From Rhodospirillaceae bacterium (GTDB taxonomy: Bacteria; Pseudomonadota; Alphaproteobacteria; Bin65): a stretch of DNA of 64,000 bases. The translations under genes were made by a program, and so were the position numbers. Position 1 is the first letter of the stretch, and each line of letters opens with the position of its first letter. Where the stretch lies: the NCBI GenBank assembly GCA_011523655.1, contig WTGH01000010.1, positions 124,001 through 188,000 of the forward strand, given 5' to 3'. The notes beneath the pieces are model-generated. The model saw only the letters and a program-made list of their open reading frames with translations, did no database searches and was not told the origin of the DNA. Below, piece after piece: positions 46,279 through 63,122 of this stretch.

Positions 46279-49200
46279 TCAGCTGCACCCGCTGGTCGCC
46301 CCGCAGGTGTCGCACTTGAGACACGTGCCGTTGCGCACCAGGGTGAAATTCCCGCATTCGCCGCAGGAGTCGCCCTCATAGCCCTTCATCCGCGCCTCGC
46401 GGATCTGGTCGAGCTTGAGGTCGACCGCCTCGGCGACTGCGGGAGATACCTCGAGAGCCGCTGACCCGCCCTCGAGCTCCGCGGTCTGCAAGCCGCCGTT
46501 GCCGCCGCCGGAGGATGCGGCGGAAACGCCTGCCGGCTTGCCGGCCGAAGACTGTTGTCCCGAAACATTGCCGGCGCCGTTGCCGGCCCCGTGGCCTGAA
46601 CCGTTCCCGGCGCCATGGCCGGAACCGTTGCCTGATCCGTTGCCTGATCCATTGCCGCCGGCGTTCGCGGCCAGCGACAGGCCGCCCTCAAGGACGGCGA
46701 ACTTGTTGCGCACGAAGCCGTTGCTCGCGACCTTCTGGACCCCGTCGAGCACGGCGGCGGCGGCGGCCTGGGCGGCCGCGTCGTCGGCCAGCGCGCTCTC
46801 CGCGACGCCGCTGCCGATGATGTCGGGCAGCATGTCGGTGCCGGTGGCGTGGGCGAGGTCTTCCCGGTCCAGGTAGGAGACCGCCAGCTCGCGGAAGATG
46901 TAGTCGATCACCGACGTCGCCATCTTGATGGCGTCGTTGCCCTCGACCAGACCCTGGGGCTCGAAGCGGGTGAAGGTGAAGGAGTCGACGAACTCCTCCA
47001 GCGGCACGCCGTATTGCAGGCCCATCGAGACGGCGATGGCGAAGCTGTCCATGATGCTGCGGAAGGAGCTGCCTTCCTTGTGCATGTCGATGAAGATTTC
47101 GCCGAGCGTGCCGTCGTCGTATTCGCCGGTGCGCAGATAGACCTTGTGGCCGCCGACGATGGCCTTCTGGGTATAGCCGCGGCGCCGGTGCGGCAGGCGC
47201 TCCCGGCTGGCACGCTCTGCCTTCTCGGCGACCATCTGCGTCGCCTGCATGGCGATCTGCGCGGCCTGTTCCGCCGCCGGGGCCCGGATGACGGCTTCCT
47301 TGGCGTCCTCGGCCGCGTCCTCGTCGTCGAGATCGTCAAACACGGTGGCCGAGAGCGGCTGGCTGAGCTTGGAGCCGTCGCGGTAGAGCGCGTTGGCCTT
47401 CACGCCCAGCTGCCACGACAGTTCATAGGCCTTGCGGCAGTCCTCGACCGTCGCCGCGTTCGGCATGTTGATCGTCTTGGAGATCGCGCCGGAGACGAAG
47501 GGCTGGGCCGCCGCCATCATGCGGATGTGGCTCTCCCAGCTCAGGAAGCGCCTGCCGGACCGCCCGCACGGCGAGGCGCAGTCGAACACCGGCAGATGCT
47601 CGTCCTTCAGGTGCGGCGCGCCTTCCAGGGTCATCGCCCCGCACACCCAGGCGTTCGCCGCCTCGATCTCGCGGCGCGAGAAGCCGAGGGCGGCGAGCAT
47701 GTCGAATTCCGGATCGTCGAGCGCGTCCGGGTCGAGGCCGAGCCGGTTGACGCAGAAATCCTCGCCCAGGGTCCATTTGTTGAAGACGAACTTGATGTCG
47801 AAGGCCTGGGCGAGGGCGTCCTCGACCCGCTCGATCATCGGCTCGGTGAAGCCGGCCTTGCGCAGCGCCGCATGGTCGATCGCCGGCGACTCCTCCAGCG
47901 AGCCGTTGCCGACGGCATAGCGGATCATCTCCTCGATCTGCGGCGTGGCGTAGCCCAGGGTGCGCAGCGCCAGCGGCGCCAGCCGGTTGATGATCTTGAA
48001 ATAGCCGCCGCCGGCGAGCTTCTTGAACTTGACCAGCGCGAAGTCCGGCTCGATCCCGGTGGTGTCGCAGTCCATGACCAGGCCGATCGTGCCGGTCGGC
48101 GCGATCACCGTGGCCTGGGCGTTGCGGTAGCCGGCGGTCGCGCCTTTCTCATAGGCCCGGTCCCACGCCGCGCGGGCGGCGTCGAGCAGCGCCCGGTCCG
48201 GGCAGGCCGCCCGGTCGAGCGGGACGGGCAGGACGGCGAGGTCCTCGTAGCCCTCGGTCTCGCCCCAGGCGGCGCGGCGGTGGTTGCGCATCACCCGCAG
48301 CATGGCGCCGGCGTTCTCGGCATGGCCGGGGAAGGGGCCGAGCTCGGCGGCCATGTCGGCCGAGGTCTCGTAGGCCGCGCCGGTCATCAGCGCGCTCACG
48401 GCGCCGCAGAAGGCCCGGCCTTCGTCGCTGTCGTAGGGCAGGCCCGAGGCCATCAGGTAGCCGCCGACATTGGCGAAGCCGAGGCCCAGCGTCCGGTAGC
48501 GGTAGGACAGCTCGGCGATCCGGCGCGACGGGAACTGCGCCATCAGGACGGAGATTTCCAGCGTCAGCGTCCACAGCCGCACGGCGTGCTCGAAGCCGGC
48601 GACGTCGAACGCGCCGTCGGCCTTGCGGAAGGCGAGCAGGTTGAGCGACGCCAGGTTGCACGCCGTGTCGTCCAGGAACATGTATTCCGAGCACGGATTC
48701 GACGCGTTGATGCGCCCGCCGGCCGGGCAGGTATGCCATTCGTTGATTGTCGAATCGAACTGGACGCCGGGATCGGCCGACTGCCAGGCGGCCTCGGCGA
48801 TCTGCCGCCACAATTCGCCGGCATTGATTTTGCGGTGCTCGTCCCCGGTCGTGCGCTTGTAGAGCGTCCATTCGCCGTTCGCCATCGCGGCGTCGAGGAA
48901 TTCGTTGGTGACACGCACCGAGTTGTTGGAATTCTGGCCAGAGACGGTGAGGTAGGCCTCCGAATCCCAGTCGGTGTCGTAGGTCGTGAATTCGATCTCC
49001 TCGAAGCCCTGCTGGGCGAACTGGATGACCCGCTGGATATAGTTCTGCGGCAGCATCGCCTTGCGCGCCTTGCGGATCGCCTTGCGCAGGCTCGGATTGG
49101 CGCGCGGGTTGAAGGGCTCGGCGCCGTCGAACGCGCGGCAGGCGCGCATGATGTCGTTGAGATGCTTGCGCGCGAGCTTCGAGCCGGCGACCAGCGCGGC

Positions 49201-50106
49201 GACCTTCTGCTCTTCCCTGACCTTCCAGTTGACGAAGTCCTCGATGTCGGGATGGTCGACGTTAACGATGACCATCTTGGCGGCGCGCCGCGTGGTGCCG
49301 CCGGACTTGATCGCGCCGGCCGCCCGGTCGCCGATCTTGAGGAAGCTCATCAGGCCGCTGGACTTGCCGCCGCCGGAAAGGGGCTCGCACTCGCCGCGCA
49401 GGGTCGAGAAGTTGGTGCCGGTGCCCGAGCCGTATTTGAACAGTCGTGCCTCGCGCACCCACAGGTCCATGATGCCGCCGTCGTTCACCAGGTCGTCGGC
49501 GATCGACTGGATGAAGCAGGCATGGGGCTGGGGGCGTTCGTAGGCCGAAGACGCCTCGGTCAGCGTTCCGGTCTCGTGGTCGACATAGTGGTGGCCCTGG
49601 CCGGGGCCGTCGATGCCGTAGGCCCAGTGCAGGCCGGTGTTGAACCATTGCGGCGAGTTCGGCGCCGCCATCTGGCGCGCCAGCATGAAGCGCATCTCGT
49701 CGAAATAGGCGCGGGCGTCGGCCTCGCCGTCGAAATAGCCGCCCTTCCAGCCCCAGTAGGTCCAGGTGCCGGCGAGCCGGTCGAACACCTGCTTGGCGCT
49801 GGTCTCGCCGCCCGTCCCCGCGTCCATCCGGGCGCCCTTCTTCGGCGCGCGCCGGGCCAGCCAGCCGGGGACATTCTCTTCCGGGACGGGTTCGAGATCG
49901 GCTTCGTCCGCCACCCCGGCCTTGCGGAAATATTTCTGGGCCAGGATGTCGATGGCGACCTGGGACCAGTCCTCCGGCGCCTCGACCCGGTCGTTGCTGA
50001 ACACGACGGAGCCGTCCGGATTGCGGATCTCGCTCGTCGCCTTCCGGAAGGCGATACCGTCATAGGCATCCCGGCCTTCGACCGTGAACTGGCGCCGGAT
50101 TTTCAT
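46279..50106 (-). CDS. nrdJ: Vitamin B12-dependent class II ribonucleotide reductase
   Basis: NrdJ reduces ribonucleotides to deoxyribonucleotides using adenosylcobalamin, with or without oxygen. The N-domain has [22 protein letters not shown]. The catalytic barrel carries the Cys/substrate region [21 protein letters not shown] with the Asn-x-Cys-x-Glu. The C-terminal zinc-finger-like [22 protein letters not shown] contains the reducing cysteines. Before that finger is an odd Gly/Asn/Ser-rich linker (about [17 protein letters not shown]). I chose the ATG at 50106 because AGGGAG lies six bases before it. About 1275 aa matches the long alphaproteobacterial form. Confidence 0.95.
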
Positions 50107-50227
50107 CGGCATCTCCCTGTCCGCCAGGCGCCCGGTCGGCGCCGCGACCTCATCCCTATATGTTGAGCTTTGTCGGCCCGTTACCCCAAGATATTGCGCG
50201 GCTCAGGCGAATGAGTCAACAAATTTT

Positions 50228-50243
50228 CCACAATATGTTGTGG
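50228..50243 (-). promoter_or_regulatory. Candidate NrdR box upstream of nrdJ
   Basis: CCACAATATGTTGTGG has perfect six-base arms with a TATG centre and resembles the NrdR consensus (ACACWATATWTWGTGT). A weaker half-like site, CCAAGATATTGCGC, lies 42 bases nearer the gene, a whole number of helical turns. NrdR represses ribonucleotide reductases, so this site fits the nrdJ promoter; the match is partial, so I call it a candidate. Confidence 0.5.
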
Positions 50244-50436
50244 GTGAAAGGATCATGACAGACAATATCATGAGAAAACCGCTACATTCAGCGACTTTTT
50301 CCAAGACTTGCATAACGTGGAAAAGTCCCGCGTCTCACCATCCCGTCAGGGCGTACGGGAGGGTTTGAAACCCTCCCCTACAATTCCCTGTCCGCCCGCT
50401 TCGTCAGGCTCAGGGCGGGCATTCGACACGCCCCGC

Positions 50437-50577: not shown

Positions 50578-50742
50578 CTACGCCTTCCGCCCGGCCAGCG
50601 TCACGCCGACGATCGCCAGGACGACCAGCGCCGCGCCGAGCCACTGGGTCGCGCCGAAGGCTTCGCCGAACAGGAAGACGGCCATGACGATGGTGAAGAC
50701 CGGCTCCAGATTCATCACCAGGGCAGTCCCGGTATCCCCCAT
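50578..50742 (-). pseudogene. C-terminal remnant of an EamA/DMT transporter
   Basis: Only the last 54 residues of an EamA-type permease remain (GDTGTALVMNLEPVFTIVMAVFLFGEAFGATQWLGAALV, then VVLAIVGVTLAGRKA, written in two parts). The open frame continues upstream into sequence unlike the family, so the 5' part has been lost or replaced. The remnant lies between a dispersed repeat and a strong promoter for the next gene, which suggests a deletion or rearrangement here. Confidence 0.72.
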
Positions 50743-50813
50743 CCGATACGCCACGTTCCGCTGCTTGCGGAGCAACACCGGAACCATGTCCGTCTGCGCC
50801 CGCCGCTCAATAG

Positions 50814-50843
50814 TTGACGGCAGGTTTCCCTCACTGCTATAAT
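50814..50843 (+). promoter_or_regulatory. Strong promoter of the XRE-cupin regulator
   Basis: TTGACG (50814-50819) and a perfect TATAAT (50838-50843) are spaced by 18 bases. The sequence before and over the -35, AATAGTTGAC, matches the element ACATAGTTGAC at the cupin promoter (52511) and resembles ACTATGTTGAC at the TRAP promoter (53200), suggesting shared control, possibly autoregulation. Confidence 0.7.
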
Positions 50844-50975
50844 ATGATCCGAAAAGGGATACCGTATTTACCGGGCTGAATGTAAGCGTCGGATGCGGCC
50901 GGGCCGCAATTCGATCCGGGCGACAAGTCCGATACCGGGATCTGCCGAGCCAATCCGGCGAACGGGGCAAGCGAA

Positions 50976-51563
50976 GTGAGCGACGCCAACCTGGAAGAAC
51001 TGATCGCCAGGCACCTGAAGGAGTTGCGTGCAATCAGGGGCGCGACCCTGGAAAGCCTCGCCGCGCAAACGGGTTTCACGAAGGGCTATCTTTCGAAGAT
51101 CGAAAACGGGCGAAAGCTGCCGCCGATCGGGACGCTGTCGCGCATCGCCAGCGCCCTGAACACGGACATCGCGTACTTCTTCCAGAAAGACGAGGATATC
51201 GAGGACGACGACGACAGTTTCTCCATCGTGCGGGCGCAGGAGCGCAAGCGCATCGTCCGGGGCGGCACGTCCTTCGGCTACGACTACGAGAGCATCGCCT
51301 ACAAGAAAATCGCCAAGTCGATGGAGCCCTTCGTCTTCACGTTTCCCGAATCCTTCGACGACGACACCAATTTTTCCCACGAGGGCGAAGAGATGGTGTT
51401 CGTGTTGAGCGGCACCGTCGAATTCGAGGTCGGGGGCAAGAGCGCCATCCTGTCTCCCGGCGATTGCATCTATATGGACGCCATCGTCGAACATCGGGGC
51501 CGCGCGGTCGGCGGCGAAGCGAAGGCCCTGGTCGTGATCTTTCAGCCAAACGCCGAATCCTGA
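50976..51563 (+). CDS. XRE-family regulator with C-terminal cupin domain
   Basis: This 195-aa transcription factor has an N-terminal HTH (about residues 8-62: HLKELRAIRGATLESLAAQTGFTKGYLSKIENGRKLPPIGTL, read here as HLKELRAIRGATLESL and YLSKIENG) and a C-terminal cupin (about residues 115-190: HEGEEMVFVLSGTVEFEV...LSPGDCIYMDAIVEHRG). The cupin usually senses a small ligand. The start is a GTG at 50976. It is the first gene of a catabolic block (DJ-1, cupin, TRAP, BHAC) and the best candidate regulator for it besides BhcR. Confidence 0.9.
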   Translation: MSDANLEELIARHLKELRAIRGATLESLAAQTGFTKGYLSKIENGRKLPPIGTLSRIASALNTDIAYFFQKDEDIEDDDDSFSIVRAQERKRIVRGGTSFGYDYESIAYKKIAKSMEPFVFTFPESFDDDTNFSHEGEEMVFVLSGTVEFEVGGKSAILSPGDCIYMDAIVEHRGRAVGGEAKALVVIFQPNAES

Positions 51564-51653
51564 AGGAATGAAACCCCACGAAGGGCGCGCCGCCTGTTTC
51601 CCCGACGGGCCGGCCGCCGGGCCGAACCGGACGCTGCCAGGGACAGCCACGCC

Positions 51654-52304
51654 ATGAAATTCGCGATCCTGATCTATGACGACGTCGAGCCGATCGACAT
51701 TGGCGGGACGGCGGGAGTCCTCTCCATGGCGCGCCGCTTCGAGGACAGCATCGAGATCATGTGCGTCGCCGAAGAGGCGGGCGAGGTGCGTTTCGCCGGT
51801 GGCGTGCGCGCGATCGCGGACTACGGCTACGACACCTGCCCGGACTTCGACGTCCTGATCGTGACGGGCGGGCCCGGATGGATCCGGCAGGCCGGGACCC
51901 CGGCAACGGTCGACTTCGTCAAACGGGCGAGCCGGCGCGCCACCGTCGTATCGGTCTGCACCGGCGCGATGATCCTGGCGGCCGCGGGCCTCGCCGACGG
52001 CCGCGCGGTGACAACGCGCCGCCGGAGCGGGCCGGGCGAAACGGCGCCCCTGGACCTGCTGTCCGACCGCGCGCCGGCCGCCAAACCAAGAGAGGCGCTG
52101 CTGGTCGACACCGGCAGTGTCGTCACCGGCGGCGGGGTGACCCTGGCCATCGATGTCACCTTTCACCTTCTGGAGCGCTTCTTCGGCACCGGGCTCCGGG
52201 ACAGGACGGCGGCCCTGATGGAATACGACCGGGCCCTGGCGGCGAACGCGCGGCATCTCGACGTGGTCCGCGAGAGTCCGGCTGCGCCGCCGGGCGCCGC
52301 ATAA
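51654..52304 (+). CDS. DJ-1/PfpI family protein
   Basis: This is a cytoplasmic protein of the DJ-1/PfpI/GATase1-like superfamily with 216 residues. The nucleophile elbow carries Cys in TVVSVCTGAMILAAAGL (about residue 104), and the early LIYDDVEPIDIGGTAGVLSMA is typical of the isonitrile hydratase/AraC-like branch. Such proteins act as hydratases, glyoxalases or deglycases. It follows the XRE-cupin gene after 90 bases. A glyoxal- or glyoxylate-linked role would fit the nearby BHAC but is not shown. Confidence 0.83.
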   Translation: MKFAILIYDDVEPIDIGGTAGVLSMARRFEDSIEIMCVAEEAGEVRFAGGVRAIADYGYDTCPDFDVLIVTGGPGWIRQAGTPATVDFVKRASRRATVVSVCTGAMILAAAGLADGRAVTTRRRSGPGETAPLDLLSDRAPAAKPREALLVDTGSVVTGGGVTLAIDVTFHLLERFFGTGLRDRTAALMEYDRALAANARHLDVVRESPAAPPGAA

Positions 52305-52515
52305 GCCCGGGCATTTTCCCGTCCAGACCGCGCCGGCGGCAGGATCGGCGCAGGAATTCCACCCCGTAAAGCGCGTTCGAACGGGCTGCCGGCATCCGCC
52401 CCGGCGGCGCCGGGCCGCGCATCGTCCGCTGCCTCCGAGGAGGGGAACGGTGCGCGCGCCGTCGGCCCGCCGTCGCCTCCCGCATGTCCCGTCTGCATCT
52501 ATTTGGGAAACATAG

Positions 52516-52544
52516 TTGACTTTCTTAAATATGTTGCCTATTCA
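52516..52544 (+). promoter_or_regulatory. Promoter of the cupin gene with operator-like repeats
   Basis: TTGACT (52516-52521) and TATTCA (52539-52544) are spaced by 17 bases. The motif GAAACATAGTTGAC overlaps the -35 box, and related copies occur at 52526 (AAATATGTTG) and 52554 (GAAACCATGTTG). AACATAGTT is the reverse complement of AACTATGTT in the TRAP promoter, so one protein could bind both in opposite orientations. Confidence 0.55.
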
Positions 52545-52592
52545 GGCTTTCATGGGAAACCATGTTGCAAAACTTAGCTATCGGAGAGCGCG

Positions 52593-53006
52593 ATGACTGC
52601 AAAACGAAAGCCCAAGGTCGAACCGACGATCGGCGGCTCGGTATATGTCGACCCGAAGACGATCGAATGGGCGCCGAGCCAGTTCGACGGCATCGAGATC
52701 AAGGTTCTCTACGAGAACAAGGCGGAAGGGGAGATGACCTGCCTGCTCAAATGGCAGCCGGGCGCATCCCTGCCGTTTCACAAGCACCCGGAGATCGAGC
52801 AGTCCTACGTCATCGAGGGGTCGTTCTACGATCACGACGGGATCTGCCGCGCCGGCGAGTTCGTCTGGCGGCATCCCGGGTCGTTCCACCAGACCCATAC
52901 AGACGAAGGCTGCGTCCTTCTCGCCGTCTACCGCAAGCCCAACGTCTTCCAGAATACGGCGGGCTTCTACAAGGATTCCGCGGCCAAGGGCTTCGGAGAC
53001 GGCTGA
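52593..53006 (+). CDS. Cupin-domain protein (ChrR-like)
   Basis: This 137-residue single-domain cupin has the sequence CLLKWQPGASLPFHKHPEIEQSYVIEG (split: CLLKWQPGASLPFHKH and EIEQSYVIEG), providing the His-x-His-x(n)-Glu metal ligands, and a later His in HPGSFHQTHTDEGC. It resembles ChrR/2,4'-dihydroxyacetophenone dioxygenase-type proteins. It is the first gene under its own promoter, ahead of the TRAP transporter. The substrate is unknown; it might be a dioxygenase, isomerase or sensor. Confidence 0.82.
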   Translation: MTAKRKPKVEPTIGGSVYVDPKTIEWAPSQFDGIEIKVLYENKAEGEMTCLLKWQPGASLPFHKHPEIEQSYVIEGSFYDHDGICRAGEFVWRHPGSFHQTHTDEGCVLLAVYRKPNVFQNTAGFYKDSAAKGFGDG

Positions 53007-53337
53007 CCGGCGGGAACGGTGGTGGCGGGGACGGGCGCTCCGGCGGGCAGGACCGCCGGACGGTCCGGGACCTGCTCGATGAGCGGTGTCCCGGAGCCGT
53101 CCCGCCCCGCAACCCCTTGATGTTTCCCATTTTGCTGAATTTTTCTCCCAATAAAGAAAATATGTTGAATCATCGATTTCTTTTGTGTCATATTAAGAAA
53201 CTATGTTGACCAAATGACCGTGTCGGGTCAAATGCGGGCGCGAGCCCGGCGCCGGCCGGTCGGGACAACATGCCAATCGAAATCGGCGCAGGGGCCGGAT
53301 TGTGGGCCGAGGGCGCCGGAGCCAGTGGGAGGCACCC
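53007..53337. other. TRAP promoter region
   Basis: The left 100 bases are GC-rich with no gene. From about 53130 the sequence becomes A/T-rich and holds two copies of the regulatory motif: AAGAAAATATGTTGAAT (53154-53170) and AAGAAACTATGTTGACC (53195-53211), 41 bp apart, which is close to four helical turns. The second overlaps a TTGACC -35 (53206-53211), with TCAAAT (53228-53233) as -10 at 16 bases. Confidence 0.55.
53206..53233 (+). promoter_or_regulatory. Candidate TRAP operon promoter
   Basis: TTGACC at 53206 and TCAAAT at 53228, spaced 16 bases, form a moderate sigma-70-type promoter. The -35 is part of the repeated GAAACTATGTTGAC element also found in mirror form before the cupin gene. 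The dctP start follows about 100 bases downstream. Confidence 0.45.
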
Positions 53338-54399
53338 ATGACGAGTTCGAATTCCCGAGCGTTGACGGCAGTCGGCGCAATCGTCCTTTTCGCGGCGGCG
53401 TTTGCGACTGCGGCGCCCGCCGCCGAAAAGTCCGTACGGTGGAAGATGCAAAGCTGGTTCCCCAGCAAAGCGCCTCATGCCGGATCGACGGGCAAGGACA
53501 TCCAGACGAAAATCAAGCGGGTTTCCGGCGGCAAGTTCCGGATCCGGTTCTTCGAGCCGGGCGCCCTGATTCCGCCCGCCGAATGTTTCGATGCGGTGAA
53601 GAACGGATCGGTCGACGCCTGCTGGTCGACGCCGGCCTACTGGTACGGCAAGGAGCCGGCGTTCGCCCTCTTTTCGGCCGCGCCCTTCGGTCCGGACTGG
53701 CCGGGGCTCCTGGCGTGGTTCAACTACCACGGCGGCAAGGAGATCTACGAAAAGCTCTATCGCAAGCACAACATGCACGCGATCCATTGCGGCGGGATGA
53801 TTCCGGAGGCGTCGGGCTGGTTCAAGAAAGAGATCACGTCCGTGGACGACTTCAAGGGCATGAAGATCCGCTTTCTCGGACTGGGCGCGCTGGTTCTCGA
53901 CCGCCTCGGCGCGTCGACGCAGCTGCTCGCCGGCGGCGACATCTTTCCGGCGCTGGAGCTGGGCACGATCGACGCGACCGAGTTCGCCGCGCCTTCGGTC
54001 GACTGGAACCTCGGCTTCTACCAGATCGTGAAGAACTATTATTTCCCCGGCTGGCATCAGCCGGCGACGATCTACGACATCATGATCAACCTGGACCGCT
54101 GGAACGCGCTCAGCGATACCCAGAAAGCCCAACTGGAAATGGTCTGCGGCGACAACGTCCGCCAGGCGATCGCCCAGGGCGAGGCGATGCAACCGGCCGC
54201 CCTGACGCGCCACAAGGGCAAGGGCGTCAAGATTCGCAGATGGAGCCCCAAGATCCTGGCTTCTCTGGAATCGACATGGCGCGACGTGGCGCGGGATCTT
54301 TCCGAAAAAGACGAAACCTTCAAACACGCCTACACCTCCCTGACGGCGTGGCAGAAGAGATACAGCACCTGGCTGAATATCGGCTATCTGGACCGCTAG
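53338..54399 (+). CDS. TRAP transporter substrate-binding protein DctP
   Basis: This is the periplasmic binding protein of a TRAP transporter for small carboxylates. The signal peptide (AVGAIVLFAAAFATAAPAAE) is clear when starting at the ATG at 53338, preceded by GGGAGG. The DctP signature (KFRIRFFEPGALIPPAECFDAVKNGSVDACWSTPAYWYGKEP, read here as IRFFEPGALIPPAECF and SVDACWSTPAYW) and the later LGLGALVLDRLGAST-like ligand loop are present; the carboxylate-binding Arg probably lies in KIRFLGLGALV. This branch resembles 2-oxo acid and dicarboxylate TRAPs of the TakP type. Linked to BHAC, glycolate/glyoxylate-related acids are possible substrates but not shown. Confidence 0.9.
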   Translation: MTSSNSRALTAVGAIVLFAAAFATAAPAAEKSVRWKMQSWFPSKAPHAGSTGKDIQTKIKRVSGGKFRIRFFEPGALIPPAECFDAVKNGSVDACWSTPAYWYGKEPAFALFSAAPFGPDWPGLLAWFNYHGGKEIYEKLYRKHNMHAIHCGGMIPEASGWFKKEITSVDDFKGMKIRFLGLGALVLDRLGASTQLLAGGDIFPALELGTIDATEFAAPSVDWNLGFYQIVKNYYFPGWHQPATIYDIMINLDRWNALSDTQKAQLEMVCGDNVRQAIAQGEAMQPAALTRHKGKGVKIRRWSPKILASLESTWRDVARDLSEKDETFKHAYTSLTAWQKRYSTWLNIGYLDR

Positions 54400-54461: not shown

Positions 54462-55070
54462 ATGCCTGAACGAGACCGGACGATGATTTTTCTGCAAATA
54501 GCGTGCATCGGACTCAATCGCATCATCTGTTACGTCGGCAGGGCGGCGACGTGGATGGCGCTCGCCCTCATGATCGTGATTATCTTCGACGTGGTGTCCC
54601 GGCGCTTTTTCGTACTCGGATCGACAAAGCTCCAGGAACTCGAATGGCACCTTCACACCGTACTTTTCATCTTTTGCCTCGGTTACGCTTTCCTCGCCAA
54701 CGCCCATGTCCGGATCGATCTGTTTCGAAGCCGGATTTCGAACAGGCTGCAGTCCTGGATCGAACTGATCGGATGTCTTTGTTTCGTTATTCCCTATTGC
54801 GGAATCCTGGTCTTCAACGGAATCGGGTTCGCGGTTGAATCCTATGTGAGCAATGAAGTGTCGTCGGCCGGCACGGGGCTGTCCGACCGCTGGATCATAA
54901 AATCCGCCCTCACAATCGGATTGGGCATGCTCATGCTGGCCGGAATATCGGTCGCGCTGCGGCAGTTCCTTATCCTGTTCGGACCGGCCGAAGCCGAAGC
55001 TGCCATCGCACAAAGTCTTCACAGGGACGCCGGGCGCCTCGCGGACGAAACCGACGCTCCGGGACACTGA
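54462..55070 (+). CDS. TRAP transporter small permease DctQ
   Basis: This 202-aa protein has four hydrophobic helices, including AATWMALALMIVIIFDVVSRRFF and LIGCLCFVIPYCGILVFNG, matching DctQ. It starts at ATG 54462 or 54483, immediately after the terminator hairpin. The large permease follows after 59 bases. It is needed for the membrane complex with DctM. Confidence 0.88.
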   Translation: MPERDRTMIFLQIACIGLNRIICYVGRAATWMALALMIVIIFDVVSRRFFVLGSTKLQELEWHLHTVLFIFCLGYAFLANAHVRIDLFRSRISNRLQSWIELIGCLCFVIPYCGILVFNGIGFAVESYVSNEVSSAGTGLSDRWIIKSALTIGLGMLMLAGISVALRQFLILFGPAEAEAAIAQSLHRDAGRLADETDAPGH

Positions 55071-55129: not shown

Positions 55130-56494
55130 ATGACCCTCGTCGACCTGTTGCCCGCCTTCATGTTCATGGCCCTGGCCGTCCTGCTGTTCAGCGGCTTTCC
55201 GGTCGGATTCGTTCTCGGTGGCGTGGGGCTGCTCTTCGCCGGCGTCGGCAACCTGCTGGGCGTGTTCTCGACCAAGGAGTTCTTCAACATCCTCGTCAGA
55301 CTGTATGGCGGTGTCGGAGAAAATCTCGTTCTGACGGCGATTCCGATGTTCATCCTGATGGGCACGATGCTGGAGCGCAGCAACGTCGCGCGGGACCTGC
55401 TGTACTGTCTCCAGGTTCTTCTGCGGCGCGTCCCCGGAGGGCTGGCCCTTGCGGTCACCATCATGGGCACGATCATGGCCGCCACGACGGGGATCGTCGG
55501 CGCTACGGTCGTGATGATGACGCTGATGGCGCTGCCCGTGATGCTGAACCGGGGCTATTCGGCGCCGCTGGCAACCGGGACGATCGGCGCGGCCGGAACG
55601 CTCGGCATCCTGATTCCGCCCAGCATCATGCTCGTCATCATGGCCGACCTGCTGTCCACGTCGGTCGGCACGCTGTTCGTCGCGGCCCTGCTTCCGGGCC
55701 TCATGCTGTCCGGTCTTTTCCTGATCTACATCTTCTCGATCGGCGCATTCAAGCCGGCACAGGCGCCGATGATGCTTCGGGACGAGGGGCCGACCGCGCT
55801 CGGCGACATCGCGCTCCTGGTTCTGAAGAGCTTTCTGCCGCCGCTGCTTCTCATGTTCCTCGTTCTCGGATCGATCGGGTTCGGCTGGGCGACCCCGACC
55901 GAGGCGGCAGGCGTCGGCGCGTTCGGGGCAACGTTGCTGGCGATCCTGAACAAGCGCCTGAACCTGGCCGTCCTGACCGGCGTCCTGCACCGTTCGATGC
56001 TGACGAACGCGATGCTGTTCCTGATCTTCCTGGGCGCGACGGCGTTCGCCTACGTCTTCAGGTCGTTGGGCGGCGACTTCCTGTTCGAGGATTTCGTCGG
56101 CTCCGCGGAACTCGGCGCCTGGTCGACCCTTTTCATCATCATGGCGATCATCTTTATTCTCGGATTCTTTCTCGAGTGGATTGAAATCACGTTGATCGTT
56201 TTCCCGATATTCGCGCCGATCATCGCGCAGCTGGACTTCGGCAATCATGTTCCCCAGGCCAACATGATGCACTGGTTCGCGCTTCTCGTCGCGATCAATC
56301 TGCAAACGTCCTTTCTCACGCCGCCATTCGGAATAACGCTCTTCTACATGAAGGGATGCGCGCCTTCGAACATCGCGATAACGGATGTTTACAAGGGAAT
56401 CATCCCCTTCGTTCTGTTGCAGATCATCGGACTCCTTCTGGTCATCGCTCTCCCCGATATCGCCCTTTGGCTGCCGAACACGATACTGGATTGA
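55130..56494 (+). CDS. TRAP transporter large permease DctM
   Basis: This is the channel-forming subunit, with about 12 hydrophobic helices over 454 residues. Typical are GTIGAAGTLGILIPPSIMLVI and the C-terminal FLTPPFGITLFYMKG segment. It follows dctQ on the same transcript. The FNT gene starts 8 bases after its stop, so the two are probably co-transcribed. Confidence 0.93.
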   Translation: MTLVDLLPAFMFMALAVLLFSGFPVGFVLGGVGLLFAGVGNLLGVFSTKEFFNILVRLYGGVGENLVLTAIPMFILMGTMLERSNVARDLLYCLQVLLRRVPGGLALAVTIMGTIMAATTGIVGATVVMMTLMALPVMLNRGYSAPLATGTIGAAGTLGILIPPSIMLVIMADLLSTSVGTLFVAALLPGLMLSGLFLIYIFSIGAFKPAQAPMMLRDEGPTALGDIALLVLKSFLPPLLLMFLVLGSIGFGWATPTEAAGVGAFGATLLAILNKRLNLAVLTGVLHRSMLTNAMLFLIFLGATAFAYVFRSLGGDFLFEDFVGSAELGAWSTLFIIMAIIFILGFFLEWIEITLIVFPIFAPIIAQLDFGNHVPQANMMHWFALLVAINLQTSFLTPPFGITLFYMKGCAPSNIAITDVYKGIIPFVLLQIIGLLLVIALPDIALWLPNTILD

Positions 56495-56502
56495 GATCGG
56501 CG

Positions 56503-57321
56503 ATGCCCAAGCAGAATACGATAGAGCAGTTATCCGATGTCGCCGTTACGAAGATCGGGTTCCTGAGGTCCAATCCTCTGGGATTTTTCGTGTCTTCGAT
56601 GTTGGCGGGCAGTTACATCGGATTTGGCATTGCCCTGATCTTCACGATCGGGCATGTCGCAGATCCGTCATGGCGAAGCCTGGCGATGGGCGCCTGCTTC
56701 GGCATTGCGCTGACACTGGTCGTCTTTGCCGGCGCGGAACTGTTTACCGGTCATGTGATGTACATGACCATCGGCGTTCTCCAGCGCAGGATTCCGCTGC
56801 GCGACCTGGCGGCGTCCTGGGCCGTGACCTGGACCGGAAACCTCGCCGGCGCCCTTGTTCTTTGCGTGCTGCTGGTCGCCGGCGGGACGACCGTGGCGAC
56901 CGCCGGCGCCGACTATTTGAACGGCGTCGCCGCCGGCAAGATGAACGGCGCCGCGCACGCCCTCTTCGCGCGCGCGATCCTGTGCAACTGGCTGGTCTGC
57001 CTCGCCCTGTGGATGAGCGTCCGGACGGCCAGCGATACGGCAAAATGCATCGTCATCTTCTGGTGCCTGCTGGCCTTCATTGCCAGCGGGTTCGAGCACT
57101 CGGTGGCCAACATGGCGATCTTCGGCATCGCGCTGCTGACCGGCCCGGCGGTTTCCGATCCGCTCGCCGGCATGGCCCATAACCTGTTCTGGGTCACGCT
57201 CGGGAACATCGTCTCCGGATGCGTCTTCGTGAGTTTCTGCTACTGGCTGGCGAACCGGCGGGTGGCGCGGTGCCGGGCGCCGGTCGCGCTCGTTCCCGCC
57301 AGTGAAAGGAACCGCATATAG
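56503..57321 (+). CDS. Formate/nitrite transporter (FNT) family channel
   Basis: This is a pentameric membrane channel of the FNT family, with six helices over 272 residues. The sequence GSYIGFGIALIFTIG and GFEHSVANMAIFGIALL (with NMA and the conserved Glu-His) are typical, together with the cytoplasmic slit residues of the ASWAVTWTGNLAG segment. I chose the ATG at 56503. Known family members carry formate, nitrite, acetate or hydrosulfide; which applies here is unclear. It ends the TRAP gene group and is convergent with bhcD. Confidence 0.88.
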   Translation: MPKQNTIEQLSDVAVTKIGFLRSNPLGFFVSSMLAGSYIGFGIALIFTIGHVADPSWRSLAMGACFGIALTLVVFAGAELFTGHVMYMTIGVLQRRIPLRDLAASWAVTWTGNLAGALVLCVLLVAGGTTVATAGADYLNGVAAGKMNGAAHALFARAILCNWLVCLALWMSVRTASDTAKCIVIFWCLLAFIASGFEHSVANMAIFGIALLTGPAVSDPLAGMAHNLFWVTLGNIVSGCVFVSFCYWLANRRVARCRAPVALVPASERNRI

Positions 57322-57386: not shown

Positions 57387-58430
57387 CTACAAGTCGACGA
57401 ATGCGATGCCGCCCTGGCCGGCGCTGCGTCTCAGCGCGAGATCGGCGACGGCCAGGTCCTGCAAGCCAACGCCGGTGCCGTCGAACAGGGTGATCTCCGC
57501 GTCCGACGAACGGCCGGGATGCGTCCCGTCGATCACGGCTCCGATGGGCGTGATGGCGCTCTCGGCGATCGTTCCCGCGGCGATGGCGTGCTGCGCCTCG
57601 CCGATGGAAACGGACTGGGCGACCTCGTCGGTAAAGACGGAGGCGGCGGCGAGCAGCGCCGGTTCGACTTCCTGTTTGCCCCTGGTGTCGGTCCCCATGC
57701 AGGCCAGATGCGTTCCGGGCCTGATCCAGTCCGCTTTCAGGAGCGGGGCGAAGGAGGAGGTTATGGTCACGATGACGTCCGCCTGGGCGGCAAGCTCCTC
57801 GGCGCCGACCGCCTCGAACGGCAGGCCGGCCTCCGCCGCAACCTGCGCCAGCTCCGGCAGCGTTCGGCGATGGGGGCTCCAGGCGACCACCCGCTCGAAA
57901 TCGCGCTGCTCGGCCGCGGCCCGCAGCTGGAAGGGCGCCTGGTGGCCGGCGCCGACGATGCCCAGCACACGGGCATCCCTGCGGGCCAACTGCGCAATGG
58001 AAACGGCAGAAGCGGCGCCCGTCCGGATCGCGGTCAGGTGGTTGCCGGCGACCAAAGCCTTCAGCTGTCCGGTATCGGCGTCGAACAGGAAAACCGCCGA
58101 CTGGTGCCTGGCCAGGCCCCGGTCGGAATTGCCGGGCCAGTAGCCGCCGGACTTGACGCCGAGGACGAGCCGCGACCGGTCGAAACCGGACTTGAAGCCG
58201 TAGAGCGCATCGCCATGGCCGATCGCCTCGCGCACGACCGGAAAGTTCCGGGCCGCGCCCGCCGCGGCGGCGGCGAAGACCGCCTCGACCGCCTCGAACG
58301 CGTCCTGCCGGCTGACCAGCCGGGCGCAGACTTCGTCCGAGAGGACCGGAATCCGGACCTTCGCCGCGGCGCCCGCGGCGCTTCCGGCAGTATCCGGCTG
58401 GCCGGCCCGCGCGGCCGGTTCCGGCGGCAT
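57387..58430 (-). CDS. bhcD: Iminosuccinate reductase BhcD (ornithine cyclodeaminase family)
   Basis: BhcD reduces iminosuccinate to L-aspartate with NADH and closes the beta-hydroxyaspartate cycle. It belongs to the ornithine cyclodeaminase/mu-crystallin family, so automatic annotation usually gives that name. The Rossmann motif VLGIVGAGHQA and the substrate Arg/Lys region in GFKSGFDRSRLVLGVKSGGYWPGN (split as GFKSGFDRSRL and VKSGGYW) are present. I chose the ATG at 58430; it overlaps the bhcC stop by 1 base. The assignment rests on the complete bhcABCD set with a divergent IclR gene. Confidence 0.85.
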   Translation of the reverse strand: MPPEPAARAGQPDTAGSAAGAAAKVRIPVLSDEVCARLVSRQDAFEAVEAVFAAAAAGAARNFPVVREAIGHGDALYGFKSGFDRSRLVLGVKSGGYWPGNSDRGLARHQSAVFLFDADTGQLKALVAGNHLTAIRTGAASAVSIAQLARRDARVLGIVGAGHQAPFQLRAAAEQRDFERVVAWSPHRRTLPELAQVAAEAGLPFEAVGAEELAAQADVIVTITSSFAPLLKADWIRPGTHLACMGTDTRGKQEVEPALLAAASVFTDEVAQSVSIGEAQHAIAAGTIAESAITPIGAVIDGTHPGRSSDAEITLFDGTGVGLQDLAVADLALRRSAGQGGIAFVDL

Positions 58431-59593
58431 CAGTAGGCCTTGCCGCGGGCGCTCACCGGCCAGACCGTCTCGACCTTGCCGCCGCGCACGCCGACATACC
58501 AGTCGTGGACGTTGCAGGTCGGATCGCAGTGGCCGGGCACGAGGCGCAGCTTTTCGTTGATCGCGAGCGCGCCGGCCGGGTCCTCGATCACGCCATGCTC
58601 GTCCGAGCACTTGACGTATGTCACGTCATCGCGGCCGAACACCACGGGAAGGCCGCTGTCGACCGACTGCGCTTTCAGGCCGGCGTCGCAGATCGCCTTG
58701 TCGGGTTTGGCGTGGCTCATGACCGAGGTCAGGATGAACAGGGCGTTCTTCCATTCGCCGCTGTCGATGCGGTTTCCGTCCTTGTCGAGAATGCGGCCGT
58801 AATCGGCGTCCATGAACGCGTAGGAGCCGCACTGGAGCTCGTTGTAGACGCCGGAATTGCCCTCGAAATAATACGAGCCGGTGCCGCCGCCGCCGACGAT
58901 GTCGCAGTCGAGCCCCTCGGCTTTCAGCGCCTCGACGGCGTCCCGGACCATGTCGACCGCGATGTCGATCTTTGCCTTGCGGTCGGCATACAGGTCGAGA
59001 TGCTGCATCGCGCCCTGATAGGCCTGGAGCCCGGAAAATTTCAGGCCCCGGGCGGCGTCGATCGCCCTGGCGATCGCGACGACTTCGGACGTTTCCGTGA
59101 CGCCGCACCGGCCGGCGCCGCAATCGATCTCGACCAGGCATTCGATCTGCGTGCCGTGTTTCGCCGCCGCGGCGGAGAGTTCGGCGACATTTGCCATATC
59201 GTCGACGCACACGACGATCCGCGCGCCCATCTGCGGCAGCCGCGCGAGCCGGTCGATCTTGGCCGGATCGCGCACCTGGTTCGACACCAGCACGTCCCGG
59301 ATACCGCCGCGCACGAAGACTTCCGCCTCGCTCACCTTCTGGCAGCAGACGCCGCAACTGCCGCCGAGCTTCTCCTGCAGGAGGGCGATATCGACCGACT
59401 TGTGCATTTTCCCGTGGATCCGGTGGCGCACACCCATCCGTTTCGCGAAATCGCCCATCTTGACGATATTGTCCTCCAGCGCGTCGAGATCGAGCACGAG
59501 GCAGGGGGTCTGGATCTCGCTTTCGTCCATCCCGACCGTGGCCGGCAGGTCATAGCCGACTTCCAGGTGTTTGGTTCCGATGGGCATGTCCAT
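58430..59593 (-). CDS. bhcC: 3-hydroxy-D-aspartate aldolase BhcC
   Basis: BhcC condenses glycine and glyoxylate to (2R,3S)-beta-hydroxyaspartate. It is a PLP enzyme of the D-threonine aldolase fold: TPCLVLDLDALEDNI near the N-terminus, the PLP Lys in HGKMHKSVDIALLQ (the K in MHKS), and a C-terminal metal region with PGHCDPTCNVHDWYV. The 387-aa length is typical. It is usually misread as D-threonine aldolase. It lies between bhcB and bhcD in the order known for the cycle. Confidence 0.9.
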   Translation of the reverse strand: MDMPIGTKHLEVGYDLPATVGMDESEIQTPCLVLDLDALEDNIVKMGDFAKRMGVRHRIHGKMHKSVDIALLQEKLGGSCGVCCQKVSEAEVFVRGGIRDVLVSNQVRDPAKIDRLARLPQMGARIVVCVDDMANVAELSAAAAKHGTQIECLVEIDCGAGRCGVTETSEVVAIARAIDAARGLKFSGLQAYQGAMQHLDLYADRKAKIDIAVDMVRDAVEALKAEGLDCDIVGGGGTGSYYFEGNSGVYNELQCGSYAFMDADYGRILDKDGNRIDSGEWKNALFILTSVMSHAKPDKAICDAGLKAQSVDSGLPVVFGRDDVTYVKCSDEHGVIEDPAGALAINEKLRLVPGHCDPTCNVHDWYVGVRGGKVETVWPVSARGKAY

Positions 59594-59603
59594 GGATGTC
59601 CTC

Positions 59604-60557
59604 CTACTGTTGCGTCCACGGCAAGGCGTCGAGATCGACGTTGCCGCCGGTAAGGATGACGCCGACCCGGCGGCCGGCGAACGTATCCCTGTGCTTGAGA
59701 ATGGCCGCGACCGTTACCGCGCTCGACGGCTCGATCACGAGCTTCATGCGCTTCCAGACGAGCTTCATGGCGTCGACGATTTCCCGCTCGCTCACGGTCA
59801 GGATGTCGGTGACGTGGTTTGCCACGAAGTGCCAGGTCAACTCCTTGAGCGGCACCTTCAGCCCGTCCGCGACGGTCTCCGGCGCATCGTCCGCGATGAT
59901 ACGGCCGGCCCTGAGGCTGCGGCAGGCGTCGTCGGCCTGCTCCGGCTCGGCCGCGTAGATCTCGGTGCCGGGCGCCAGGCTCGACAGCGCAAGGCAGGTG
60001 CCCGAGACCATGCCCCCGCCGCCGATCGGCGCGATCACGGCATCGAGCCCGTCGATCTGGGCGACAAGTTCCCTGGCGCAGGTCGCCTGGCCGGCGATGA
60101 CGCGGGCGTCGTTGTAAGGGTGCACGAATTCCGCCCCGGTGGCCGCCTGCACCTCGGCGAACGTGGCTTCGCGCGACGATGTCGAGGGTTCGCACTCGGT
60201 GATGATCCCGCCATAGCCGCGCACCGCGCTCTTCTTCGCCTCAGGCGCCGTGTGCGGCATGACCACGTTGCAGGGGATGCCGCGCCGGCCGGCGGCGTAG
60301 GAGAGCGAGAGAGCGTGGTTGCCGGAGGAGTGGGTGGCGACCCCGCGCCCGGCCCGCGCGTCGTCGAGCCCGAACACCGCGTTCGACGCGCCGCGAACCT
60401 TGAACGCGCCCGCCTTCTGGAGGTTCTCGCACTTGAAGAACAGCGCGGTCCCGGCGAGCCGGTCGATGCAGCTCGACGTCATGACCGGCGTCCGGTGGAT
60501 GTGCGGCGCAATCCGCTCGTGCGCGGCGGCGACGTCGTCGTAGGTCGGAATGTCCAT
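59604..60557 (-). CDS. bhcB: beta-Hydroxyaspartate dehydratase BhcB
   Basis: BhcB eliminates water from beta-hydroxyaspartate to give iminosuccinate. It is a PLP enzyme related to threonine dehydratase and serine racemase: catalytic Lys in LQKAGAFKVRGA, glycine-rich phosphate loop GGGGMVSG, and the HSSGNHALSLSYA segment. The length is 317 aa. I chose the ATG at 60557 because GAAGGAG lies about nine bases before it; a longer ATG at 60575 adds only six residues. It is often labelled threonine dehydratase. Confidence 0.9.
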   Translation of the reverse strand: MDIPTYDDVAAAHERIAPHIHRTPVMTSSCIDRLAGTALFFKCENLQKAGAFKVRGASNAVFGLDDARAGRGVATHSSGNHALSLSYAAGRRGIPCNVVMPHTAPEAKKSAVRGYGGIITECEPSTSSREATFAEVQAATGAEFVHPYNDARVIAGQATCARELVAQIDGLDAVIAPIGGGGMVSGTCLALSSLAPGTEIYAAEPEQADDACRSLRAGRIIADDAPETVADGLKVPLKELTWHFVANHVTDILTVSEREIVDAMKLVWKRMKLVIEPSSAVTVAAILKHRDTFAGRRVGVILTGGNVDLDALPWTQQ

Positions 60558-60586
60558 GTCGCCGGACTCCTTCATGGAGCGCGCCG

Positions 60587-61777
60587 TCACGCCGCCGCCC
60601 GCAGCGCGGGGCGGGCCGTCCGGCGGTAGTATTCCTGGGCCGCTCTGATGCCCGAACCCGTTTCGACCGGATAGCCGAGATCCGCCATCGCCATCTCGAC
60701 GGCGGCGATTCCCGACAACGCCATCACGTCCGTCATCGCGCCGAGATGGCCGATCCGGAAGACCTTGCCGGCCAGCGGGCCCAGACCGACGCCGAACGAG
60801 ACGGCGTAGGTCTCGCGGATGTGGTCGGTCAGCGCCTCGGCGTCGAAACCCTCGGGCACGCGGATGGCGCTGACCGTATCCGAATAGAGGTCCGGCGATC
60901 GGGCGCAAAGGTCCAGCCCCCAGGCATGAACCGCCTGCCGGACGCCTTCGGCGACGCGCCGGTGCCGGGCGAAGACATTGTCCAGCCCTTCCTCGAAAAG
61001 CATGTCCAGGCTCTTGCGAAGACCGTGCATGAGTTGCAGCGGCGGCGTGTAGGGAAAGCCGCCCGCCGCGTTGGCGGCGGCCATCTCGCCGAAATCGAAG
61101 AACGAGCGGGCGCACCCGGCCGTGCCGGCGGCCTCGAGCGCCTTCCGGCTGACGCCCACGATCGCCATGCCGGTCGCCAGCATGAAGCCTTTCTGGGAGC
61201 CGGTAACGGCGACGTCCACGCCCCACTCGTCCATGCGGAAGTCCATCGAAGCCAGCGAGGAGACGCAGTCCGCGAAGAGCATCGCCGGGTGGCCGCAGAC
61301 ATCCATCGCGCGGCGGACCGCGGCGACATCGGACCTGACGCCGGTCGCCGTCTCGTTGTGCGTGACCAGGACGGCCTTGATCTCGCGGCGCCGGTCGGCG
61401 TCCAGCCGCGCGCCGAAGCGTTCCGCCGGCGCGCCGGTGCCCCAGTCGCACTCGATCGCCTCGACGTCCATGCCGTGCCGCCGGCACAGCTCGATCCAGC
61501 GGTCGGAGAATGTCCCGTAGCGGGCGGCGAGGACCTTGTCGCCGGGAGAAAGCGTGTTGGCGATCGCCGCTTCCCATCCGCCGGTGCCCGAGGCGGGGAA
61601 CAGGAAAACCTGCCCGGACGCCGTCTTGAAGACCGTCTTGAGATCGATCAGCAACGGCCCGAGCAGCGCCGCGAAGCCGGGCGAGCGATGATCGGCCGTC
61701 TGGACGTTCATCGCCCGGCGCAATCGGTCCGGAATGTTGGTCGGTCCGGGAATGAAGACGGGATTCTGTCCGGGCAT
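60587..61777 (-). CDS. bhcA: Aspartate--glyoxylate aminotransferase BhcA
   Basis: BhcA transfers the amino group of aspartate to glyoxylate, giving glycine and oxaloacetate. It resembles serine-glyoxylate aminotransferase: NPVFIPGPTNIPDRLR at the N-terminus, SGTGGWEAAIANTL, and the PLP Lys in GSQKGFMLATGM (about residue 193). The sequence follows Paracoccus-type BhcA closely in my recollection. It is 396 aa long. The first gene of bhcABCD, it reads away from bhcR. Confidence 0.92.
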   Translation of the reverse strand: MPGQNPVFIPGPTNIPDRLRRAMNVQTADHRSPGFAALLGPLLIDLKTVFKTASGQVFLFPASGTGGWEAAIANTLSPGDKVLAARYGTFSDRWIELCRRHGMDVEAIECDWGTGAPAERFGARLDADRRREIKAVLVTHNETATGVRSDVAAVRRAMDVCGHPAMLFADCVSSLASMDFRMDEWGVDVAVTGSQKGFMLATGMAIVGVSRKALEAAGTAGCARSFFDFGEMAAANAAGGFPYTPPLQLMHGLRKSLDMLFEEGLDNVFARHRRVAEGVRQAVHAWGLDLCARSPDLYSDTVSAIRVPEGFDAEALTDHIRETYAVSFGVGLGPLAGKVFRIGHLGAMTDVMALSGIAAVEMAMADLGYPVETGSGIRAAQEYYRRTARPALRAAA

Positions 61778-61994
61778 GACGCGTCCTCCTCGTCGCCGCT
61801 GCCATGAAATCTAGGGCGCACATCAAATTTGTCAATTTTTTCAGAAAAATATTCCATTTTTATTTAATATTAGAACATCGTTAATTAACAATGCGTTGTA
61901 TTTTCCAGATTTCCTGTCGGAAAAAATTGCCGAAATTTTTTTTTCGTTTACACTGGGATTCTGCCTCGGTTTCGCCCAGGAAGAAACGCCGCTC
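61778..61994. promoter_or_regulatory. Divergent bhcA/bhcR control region
   Basis: This A/T-rich gap lies between the divergent bhcA and bhcR genes. A perfect 10-bp palindrome, GTTAATTAAC, lies at 61880-61889, and further A/T-rich near-inverts (CAGAAAAATATTCCA near 61841; GGAAAAAATTGCCGAAATTTTT near 61919, given as GGAAAAAATTGCC) flank it. These fit binding sites for an IclR-type regulator, but no promoter boxes are certain. Confidence 0.5.
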
Positions 61995-62813
61995 ATGGAT
62001 CGGGCTCCTCCGAAACGTCCGCGTGGCCGCCCGCGCAAGGCCCTATCCGATGCCGATACGGGCACGGTGCGGGCGCTCGACCGCGGATTGCAGCTACTGC
62101 GCCTGCTCGCGCGCGAAAACCGGATCGCGCTGACCAGCCTCGCCATGCAGGTCGGCATGCCGCCGTCGACCGCCCACCGGCTCCTGACGACGCTCCAGAA
62201 ACACCGGTTCGCCGAATTCGACGAGGACGCCCAGGAGTGGATGATCGGGGTCGAGGCCTTCCGCGCCGGCTCCGGCTTTCTGAAGCGGATCGACCTGGTA
62301 GAGGCCAGCCGGGACATCATGCAGCGCCTGATGAGCGAGACCGGCGAGACGGCCAACCTCGCGATTCCCGACGACGGCGACATGGTCTTCGTCAGCCAGG
62401 TCGAGACCGCCAATCCGATCCGGGCCTTCTTCCGCCCCGGCGCGCGCAGCCCGATGCACGCCTGCGGCGCCGGCAAGGCGCTGCTCTCGCAGCTGGCGCC
62501 CGGGGACATCGAGAAACTGCTCCAGAGGAAGGGGCTGGCCGAGTTCACGCCCAACACCCTTACCAAACCGCAACTCCTGTTCGCCGAACTCGACACGATC
62601 CGGACACGCGGCTGGGCCTTCGACGACGAGGAACGCTATGAGGGCATGCGCTGCATCGCGGCGCCGGTCTTTAATGCGCGGGGCGACGCGGTGGCGGGCG
62701 TATCGGTCTCCGGCCCGACCGCCCGCTTTACGGACCGGGATATCGGCCTCTACGGCAACGCAGTCCGCCGGGCCGCGGCCGATCTGACCGAACGCATCGG
62801 CGGGTCGGCATAG
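61995..62813 (+). CDS. bhcR: IclR-family regulator, probable BhcR
   Basis: This transcription factor has an N-terminal winged helix (about residues 20-80: ALDRGLQLLRLLAREN, MPPSTAHRLLTTLQKH) and a C-terminal ligand-binding domain (about 95-265: ANLAIPDDGDMVFVSQVETANPIRAFFRPGARSP, shortened here to DGDMVFVSQVET). BhcR in Paracoccus senses glyoxylate and controls bhcABCD. I chose the ATG at 61995, giving MDRAPPKRPRGRPRKALSD; a longer frame starts at 61896 but adds an unlike leader. The gene is divergent to bhcA, as expected. Confidence 0.87.
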   Translation: MDRAPPKRPRGRPRKALSDADTGTVRALDRGLQLLRLLARENRIALTSLAMQVGMPPSTAHRLLTTLQKHRFAEFDEDAQEWMIGVEAFRAGSGFLKRIDLVEASRDIMQRLMSETGETANLAIPDDGDMVFVSQVETANPIRAFFRPGARSPMHACGAGKALLSQLAPGDIEKLLQRKGLAEFTPNTLTKPQLLFAELDTIRTRGWAFDDEERYEGMRCIAAPVFNARGDAVAGVSVSGPTARFTDRDIGLYGNAVRRAAADLTERIGGSA

Positions 62814-63122
62814 CGCAGCGGCGCAGGGGTCGAGGCGATACGGAAGCCCGGACCGCCCGCCGTCCGACCGGCGATATCCTGTAACCTTCTGTTTCAGGTC
62901 GATTTTATTGAGATAATTGGAGGGCGATCGGGGACTCGAACCCCGGACCCGCTGATTAAGAGTAACCGTCTGACAGGTTTTCGGCGTTTTAGCCTGATTT
63001 AGTCGACATAATTTTTCTTCAATGGTACCAGTCAGTTATACCTATATCCGCTTTCGCTTGCGTTAATCGGCATTAGTCAATATTTTGGCTCGATGGCGAC
63101 ACAGTGGCGACATGGCGGCGAC
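62814..63122. other. Intergenic region with integration site
   Basis: The left half has no gene. At 62918-62963 lies the 3' part of a tRNA-Lys gene on the minus strand. After that, to 63122, the sequence is A/T-rich and belongs to the integrated element; it may contain the integrase promoter but I see no clear boxes. Confidence 0.5.
62918..62963 (-). other. Partial tRNA-Lys(CUU) gene, attachment site of the integrated element
   Basis: Read on the minus strand, this stretch runs ACTCTTAATCAGCGG, then GGGTTCGAGTCCCC (T arm), then GATCGCCCTCCA, the 3' end with CCA. It holds the anticodon loop with CTT (Lys) and everything 3' of it. The 5' half of the tRNA is absent: the sequence turns to unrelated A/T-rich DNA immediately beyond 62963. 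This is the usual direct-repeat end of an element integrated in a tRNA gene. The intact tRNA should lie at the other end of the element, beyond the window. Confidence 0.82.

Follow-up and report, generated by a model that had tools for sequence, protein, structure and literature searches.

Two neighbouring promoters in this alphaproteobacterial genome carry rare, paired, and conserved copies of a 15-bp pseudo-palindrome, and the element is associated with a subfamily of XRE-cupin transcriptional regulators. We consider it very probable that these copies are operators of the XRE-cupin protein encoded at 50976-51563 on the forward strand, read by a dimer of an autoregulated local repressor that would occlude the promoters until released by a ligand.

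The analysis covered a window of 64,000 nucleotides, that is, the whole stretch of DNA examined. Within it, the XRE-cupin gene is followed on the same strand by a gene for a DJ-1/PfpI-family protein (51654-52304), the genomic partner of this XRE-cupin subfamily, then by a gene for a small ChrR-like cupin (Cupin_7, 52593-53006), the candidate target gene, by the TRAP transporter genes for DctP (53332-54399), DctQ (54462-55070), and DctM (55130-56494), and by a formate/nitrite-family (FNT) transporter gene (56404-57321) that ends the block. On the opposite strand lie bhcD, bhcC, bhcB, and bhcA (57387-61777), and then, on the forward strand, bhcR (62010-62813; NF045644), encoding the IclR-family regulator of the bhc genes. 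The region 57387-62813 thus holds a complete beta-hydroxyaspartate cycle cluster, with all five genes (bhcDCBA and bhcR) above the NCBIfam equivalog cut-offs. The product of 50976-51563 has the architecture that defines XRE-cupin repressors, an N-terminal XRE/Cro-CI helix-turn-helix (HTH_3, 46.5 bits) and a C-terminal cupin domain (Cupin_2, 55.5 bits), both above their gathering scores.

The block has no conserved left border: the ~96% identity with the related genome G002 stops at 50725, just 5' of the XRE-cupin promoter, and the region upstream of the ribonucleotide reductase gene matches a different contig there. Directly 3' of bhcR lies a phage-like element, called by eye from translations only, with a tyrosine-recombinase-like integrase and then terminase- and capsid-like ORFs (63093-64000, continuing into L085 1093-8201).

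Paired sites at the cupin and dctP promoters

The first-pass annotation had described a -35 element shared by three promoters. Its three strings are present where it placed them (AATAGTTGAC at 50809-50818, ACATAGTTGAC at 52510-52520, and ACTATGTTGAC at 53200-53210), AACATAGTT is indeed the reverse complement of AACTATGTT, and the 41-bp spacing of the pair given as 53154/53195 is correct. The GAAA-type copies, GAAANNATGTTG, also exist, at 52556, 53156, and 53197, but had been placed 2 bp too early (52554, 53154, and 53195). The element itself had to be redefined. Comparison with relatives revealed a 15-bp pseudo-palindrome, about GGAAAC-N3-GTTKMC. The shared feature is best read as an operator rather than as a -35 element: one copy of each pair overlaps the -35, and its partner sits past the -10. 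The annotated 12-mer AACTATGTTGAC was dropped as a motif, having one exact copy in the window. The overlap of every string with a -35 box survives in part: the promoter scan placed only 50814 in a consensus promoter, and TTGACT at 52516 is a plausible one, backed by an orthologous TATAGT -10, but TTGACC at 53205 belongs to a downstream operator and is not a -35, since no -10 follows it and it reads TTGCCC in the related genome G003.

At the cupin promoter, operator S1 (GGAAACATAGTTGAC, 52506-52520, forward strand) overlaps the -35 TTGACT (52516-52521). A half-site ending in GTTGCC, S2 (52524-52538, forward), directly precedes the -10 TATTCA (52539-52544), and operator S3 (GGAAACCATGTTGCA, 52555-52569, forward) lies 49 bp from S1, past the inferred start. 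Together, S2 and S1 make up a 33-bp inverted repeat, of which the GTTKCC of S2 is kept within the genus only. At dctP, a half-site GTTTCC in GATGTTTCC (53122-53127, reverse strand), invariant in the window, G002, and G003, stands 5' of the promoter. Operator S4 (AGAAAATATGTTGAA, 53155-53169, forward) overlaps TTGAAT (53165-53170), the likely -35, and operator S5 (AGAAACTATGTTGAC, 53196-53210, forward) falls at the inferred dctP start, 41 bp from S4; the presumed -10 (TCATAT) is a weak match at an inferred position. In both pairs, the -35 shares its TTGA with the end of the upstream copy, and the downstream copy comes after the -10 or start, which places GGAAAC-N3-GTTKMC palindromes in the core promoter. 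The copies are separated by 41 bp at dctP and by 46-49 bp at the cupin promoter, a spacing too variable for us to claim looping.

The same arrangement recurs in relatives with different letters: ATGAATATTGTTGAC ... GGAAACATTGTTTCC in locus L007, where the latter is a perfect palindrome, GGAAACTTAGTTGAC ... GGAGACCATGTTTCC in locus L008, and GGAAACATCGTTGAC ... GGAAACTATGTTGTA in G003. Locus L008 has its site at the cupin promoter and not directly before dctP; the dctP promoter could be compared within the genus only. A matrix built solely from the four sites of two distant loci, L007 and L008, and applied to 127,972 window positions ranked S1 first, S5 second, S3 sixth, and S4 tenth. The operator is nonetheless degenerate: its spacer is 3 nucleotides in the genus and in L007 and L008 and 4 in L009 and L013, and Cupriavidus- and Alcaligenes-like loci carry mainly half-sites, GGAAAC(T).

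Rarity was assessed by counting patterns over the genome and the window. In the 64-kb window, RGAAANNNNGTTGM has 6 matches where 0.20 would be expected, and four of them lie within 52506-53209; 100 shuffles never gave as many as 6. Three of the four occurrences of GAAANNATGTTG in the 4.27-Mb genome are in this block. The genome has precisely two instances of the pair GAAANNNNGTTG-N24-40-GAAANNNNGTT, one before the small cupin gene and one before dctP, and none of its reversed control. Judged by sequence alone, the targets are few, with the pair pattern at two neighbouring promoters only, in a neighbourhood that is kept in relatives. Of 385 alphaproteobacterial genomes, three have a stricter form of the pair; all three encode the XRE-cupin protein, and the pair invariably precedes their cupin gene.

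Lone matches are of little use here. Allowing one mismatch, RGAAACNNNGTTKMC matched the genome 119 times against 41 for the control; in a G+C-rich genome such single matches are uninformative, and a wider regulon drawn from them was rejected. One exact extra match (C6:188782) sits in the phage-like element downstream of bhcR. A near-match (GGAAAATTTGTTGAC) at 50216, upstream of the ribonucleotide reductase gene (46279-50112, reverse strand), was likewise rejected as an operator, being a single, chance-like copy beside a CCACAACATATTGTGG palindrome (50215-50250) that presumably represents an NrdR box. This combination of GGAAAATTTGTTGAC and CCACAACATATTGTGG was not found in the corresponding stretches of five genomes of the genus, where the region aligned only in part.

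Candidate owner of the sites

The XRE-cupin protein is the best candidate owner, and comparison among loci supports the operator family well. The first-pass annotation had named the same protein, and a dimer reading both reverse-complementary strings; 6-mer enrichment, independent locus groups, and the behaviour of distant XRE-cupins point to both. Within the genus, the pair at this block is confined to G000, G002, and G003, all of which encode the XRE-cupin protein. Genome G004 keeps the bhc genes (bhcA 92%) without the XRE-cupin, cupin, and TRAP genes, and its alignment to the window ends inside the FNT gene; no pair was found in this genome, which retains bhcR-bhcABCD. What remains of the block in G004 is the FNT gene's 3' end, next to bhcABC (L144 12800-13320), and bhcD of this genome may be frameshifted, as it was recovered in two tblastn pieces. 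Matches to the pair pattern in G005 and G007 are single, dissimilar in sequence, and without any of the block's genes.

Across loci, no 6-mer is more enriched than GGAAAC in front of the XRE-cupin, cupin, and DJ-1 genes; 33 of 39 loci have it there, against 9.9 expected. Its density there is 4.69 per kb, compared with 0.69 per kb across whole loci, while control A+G-rich 6-mers show no rise (GAAAGG 0.54 vs 0.49, CAAAGG 0.65 vs 0.46). Grouping 25 loci from outside the genus by upstream similarity gave 12 independent groups, all of which contain GGAAAC (3.9 expected, P about 1e-6), with 45 sites against 5.7 expected. Most of these loci are without bhc genes. Upstream of more distant XRE-cupins (below ~44% identity, without a cupin partner), GGAAAC is mostly absent. 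The loci were gathered partly through the recognition-helix peptide KGYLSKIE, so conservation of this helix among them is not independent evidence, and since XRE, DJ-1, and cupin genes travel together, their co-occurrence alone would also fit a regulator encoded elsewhere.

The promoter of the XRE-cupin gene had been the original reason for assigning ownership, and it proved to be the weakest part of the case, as AATAGTTGAC is mainly the -35 and its flank is not conserved. This promoter (50814-50843, forward, by promoter scan) consists of a -35 TTGACG (50814-50819), 18 nucleotides, and a -10 TATAAT (50838-50843), and it is without a good full operator. In the four related sequences compared (the window, G002, G003, and L006), the AATA of AATAGTTGAC reads GCCG in G003 and L006, whereas three blocks are invariant: GTTGACGG, which holds the -35; a GTTTCC half-site between -35 and -10 (50824-50829, GGAAAC on the reverse strand); and GGATAC-N3-ATTTAC. 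The last is part of a degenerate putative operator, GGATAC-CGT-ATTTAC (50857-50871, forward), just behind the inferred start; it matches the consensus weakly and lies at a distance of 42 bp from the 15-mer upstream, which has GTTTCC at its end. Autoregulation is plausible, but through these weaker sites rather than through the element as first annotated.

Ownership by BhcR, switching transporter and pathway together, is distinctly improbable. The gene bhcR is about 9 kb away, the TRAP and bhc genes are adjacent, and IclR boxes can contain GGAAA...TTTCC. Yet the motif tracks the XRE-cupin gene in loci without bhc genes, and G004 has bhcR-bhcABCD but no pair. The element was not shown at the bhcDCBA genes, and no matching site was seen at bhcA. 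Instead, the bhcA promoter bears a different conserved box, AAAAATGGAATATTTTTCTGAAAAAATTGACA (61830-61861, reverse strand), near identical in G000, G002, G003, and G004, which is likely BhcR's own site. By curated cut-offs, the bhc genes and bhcR of the window are orthologous to those of Paracoccus denitrificans, where BhcR, of the IclR family, has a palindromic site upstream of the bhcA -35 (PMC11323563). The AAAAATGGAATATTTTTCTGAAAAAATTGACA box lies at the matching position, just upstream of the bhcA -35, and is unlike the element studied here. What had been annotated as one catabolic block therefore needs splitting, with the bhc genes under their own regulator and a different promoter box.

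That the resemblance reflects only a shared sigma-70 -35 (TTGAC) in A+T-rich promoters, with no regulator involved, is highly improbable. Two of the three annotated strings do hold a real or likely -35, and the one at 50809 is mostly that. However, S3 and S5 lie behind a -10 and neither has one to match it, the genome holds the pair nowhere outside this block, distant loci conserve it, and the enriched GGAAAC is no promoter element. An XRE-cupin owner acting as an activator, or as an activator at one promoter and a repressor at the other, is improbable as well. The XRE-family regulator NceR is reported to activate ompA (PMC10470515), and a site upstream of the weak dctP -10 could serve recruitment. 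On the other hand, the sites cover the -35 and the start, the usual position for a repressor, and in Pseudomonas aeruginosa every XRE-cupin studied acts as an inhibitor of neighbouring genes (PMC7901475).

A predicted local repressor

We infer binding, a repressive sign, and a ligand, together with the dctP -10 and start and a tie to glyoxylate metabolism. A dimer of the XRE-cupin protein would read each 15-bp pseudo-palindrome, with one copy covering the -35 and the other just behind the -10 or start, and two dimers would keep RNA polymerase off the cupin and dctPQM promoters. As a dimer on each copy would block the polymerase, local repression by the XRE-cupin protein is the most likely mode of control for the cupin and TRAP genes. 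Through the weaker sites, the protein would also repress the operon that its gene forms with the DJ-1/PfpI gene. A ligand in the cupin domain would release the repressor, and is probably the transported compound or a product thereof. The nearest solved protein to DctP is 2hzk (deposited as SmoM), which we take to be the keto-acid binding protein TakP, and DctP also matches 7ug8 (a ketoacid-binding protein) and the lactate-binding TTHA0766. Given these relatives, the ligand is probably a small 2-oxo- or 2-hydroxy-acid; such a compound would fit the neighbouring beta-hydroxyaspartate cycle.

Repressor behaviour is already known for XRE-cupins. As described in the available part of Trouillon et al. 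2021 (PMC7901475), characterised members are local inhibitors with palindromic core-promoter sites, and the Pseudomonas XRE-cupins PsdR, PauR, ErfA, and PA0535 share with the window protein a helix-turn-helix plus cupin architecture, a gene adjoining its targets, and targets in uptake and small-molecule metabolism. Neither GGAAAC-N3-GTTKMC in pairs 41-49 bp apart nor a target set of ChrR-like cupin and TRAP transporter is among those described in that part. DbuR of Pseudomonas putida is similarly an XRE-cupin beside a catabolic/transport operon with a palindrome over promoter elements, but the palindrome that it protects, AATTCTCATATATTAGAATT, covers the target's -10 and has a different half-site (PMC12724383). 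The best NCBIfam relative of the window protein is PuuR of E. coli, also an XRE-cupin repressor, which differs in its neighbouring genes; we rejected an assignment as the putrescine-responsive PuuR equivalog, at 40.4 bits against a cut-off of 211 (NF007408). A literature search for XRE, cupin, and GGAAAC together returned no match. What is new here is the operator sequence and the target set only.

A recurrent cassette and its link to the beta-hydroxyaspartate cycle

The trio of XRE-cupin, DJ-1/PfpI, and ChrR-like cupin genes is found again in Herbaspirillum, Cupriavidus, Alcaligenes, and others. The transporter seems exchangeable, as TRAP proteins accompany the cassette in some loci (L008, L033) and a shikimate-transporter-like MFS gene in others (L024, L037). 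In the latter two, which are Cupriavidus- or Alcaligenes-like, an MFS metabolite/H+ symporter stands beside the cupin and XRE-cupin genes in the place of the TRAP transporter (L024 6398-7777, L037 5343-6788). The link to the beta-hydroxyaspartate cycle seems specific to a few alphaproteobacteria (G000, G002, G003, and L008), and a literature search for this cycle together with a TRAP transporter returned no match. Tentatively, these loci may represent a widespread proteobacterial XRE-cupin subfamily with its own GGAAAC operator, controlling a conserved cassette of cupin, DJ-1, and, interchangeably, a TRAP or an MFS transporter for an acid yet to be recognised. In this genus, the cassette would have been coupled to the beta-hydroxyaspartate cycle, giving glyoxylate assimilation a second input with its own sensing.

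For an XRE-cupin subfamily that is found repeatedly in Alpha-, Beta-, and Gammaproteobacteria but is so far uncharacterised, our analysis provides a concrete candidate operator and a set of targets. With these given, the regulon would be predictable elsewhere, and the ligand could be traced through the transporter. The analysis also distinguishes two predicted regulons that adjoin each other at the beta-hydroxyaspartate cycle, itself an important pathway for carbon from glycolate and glyoxylate.
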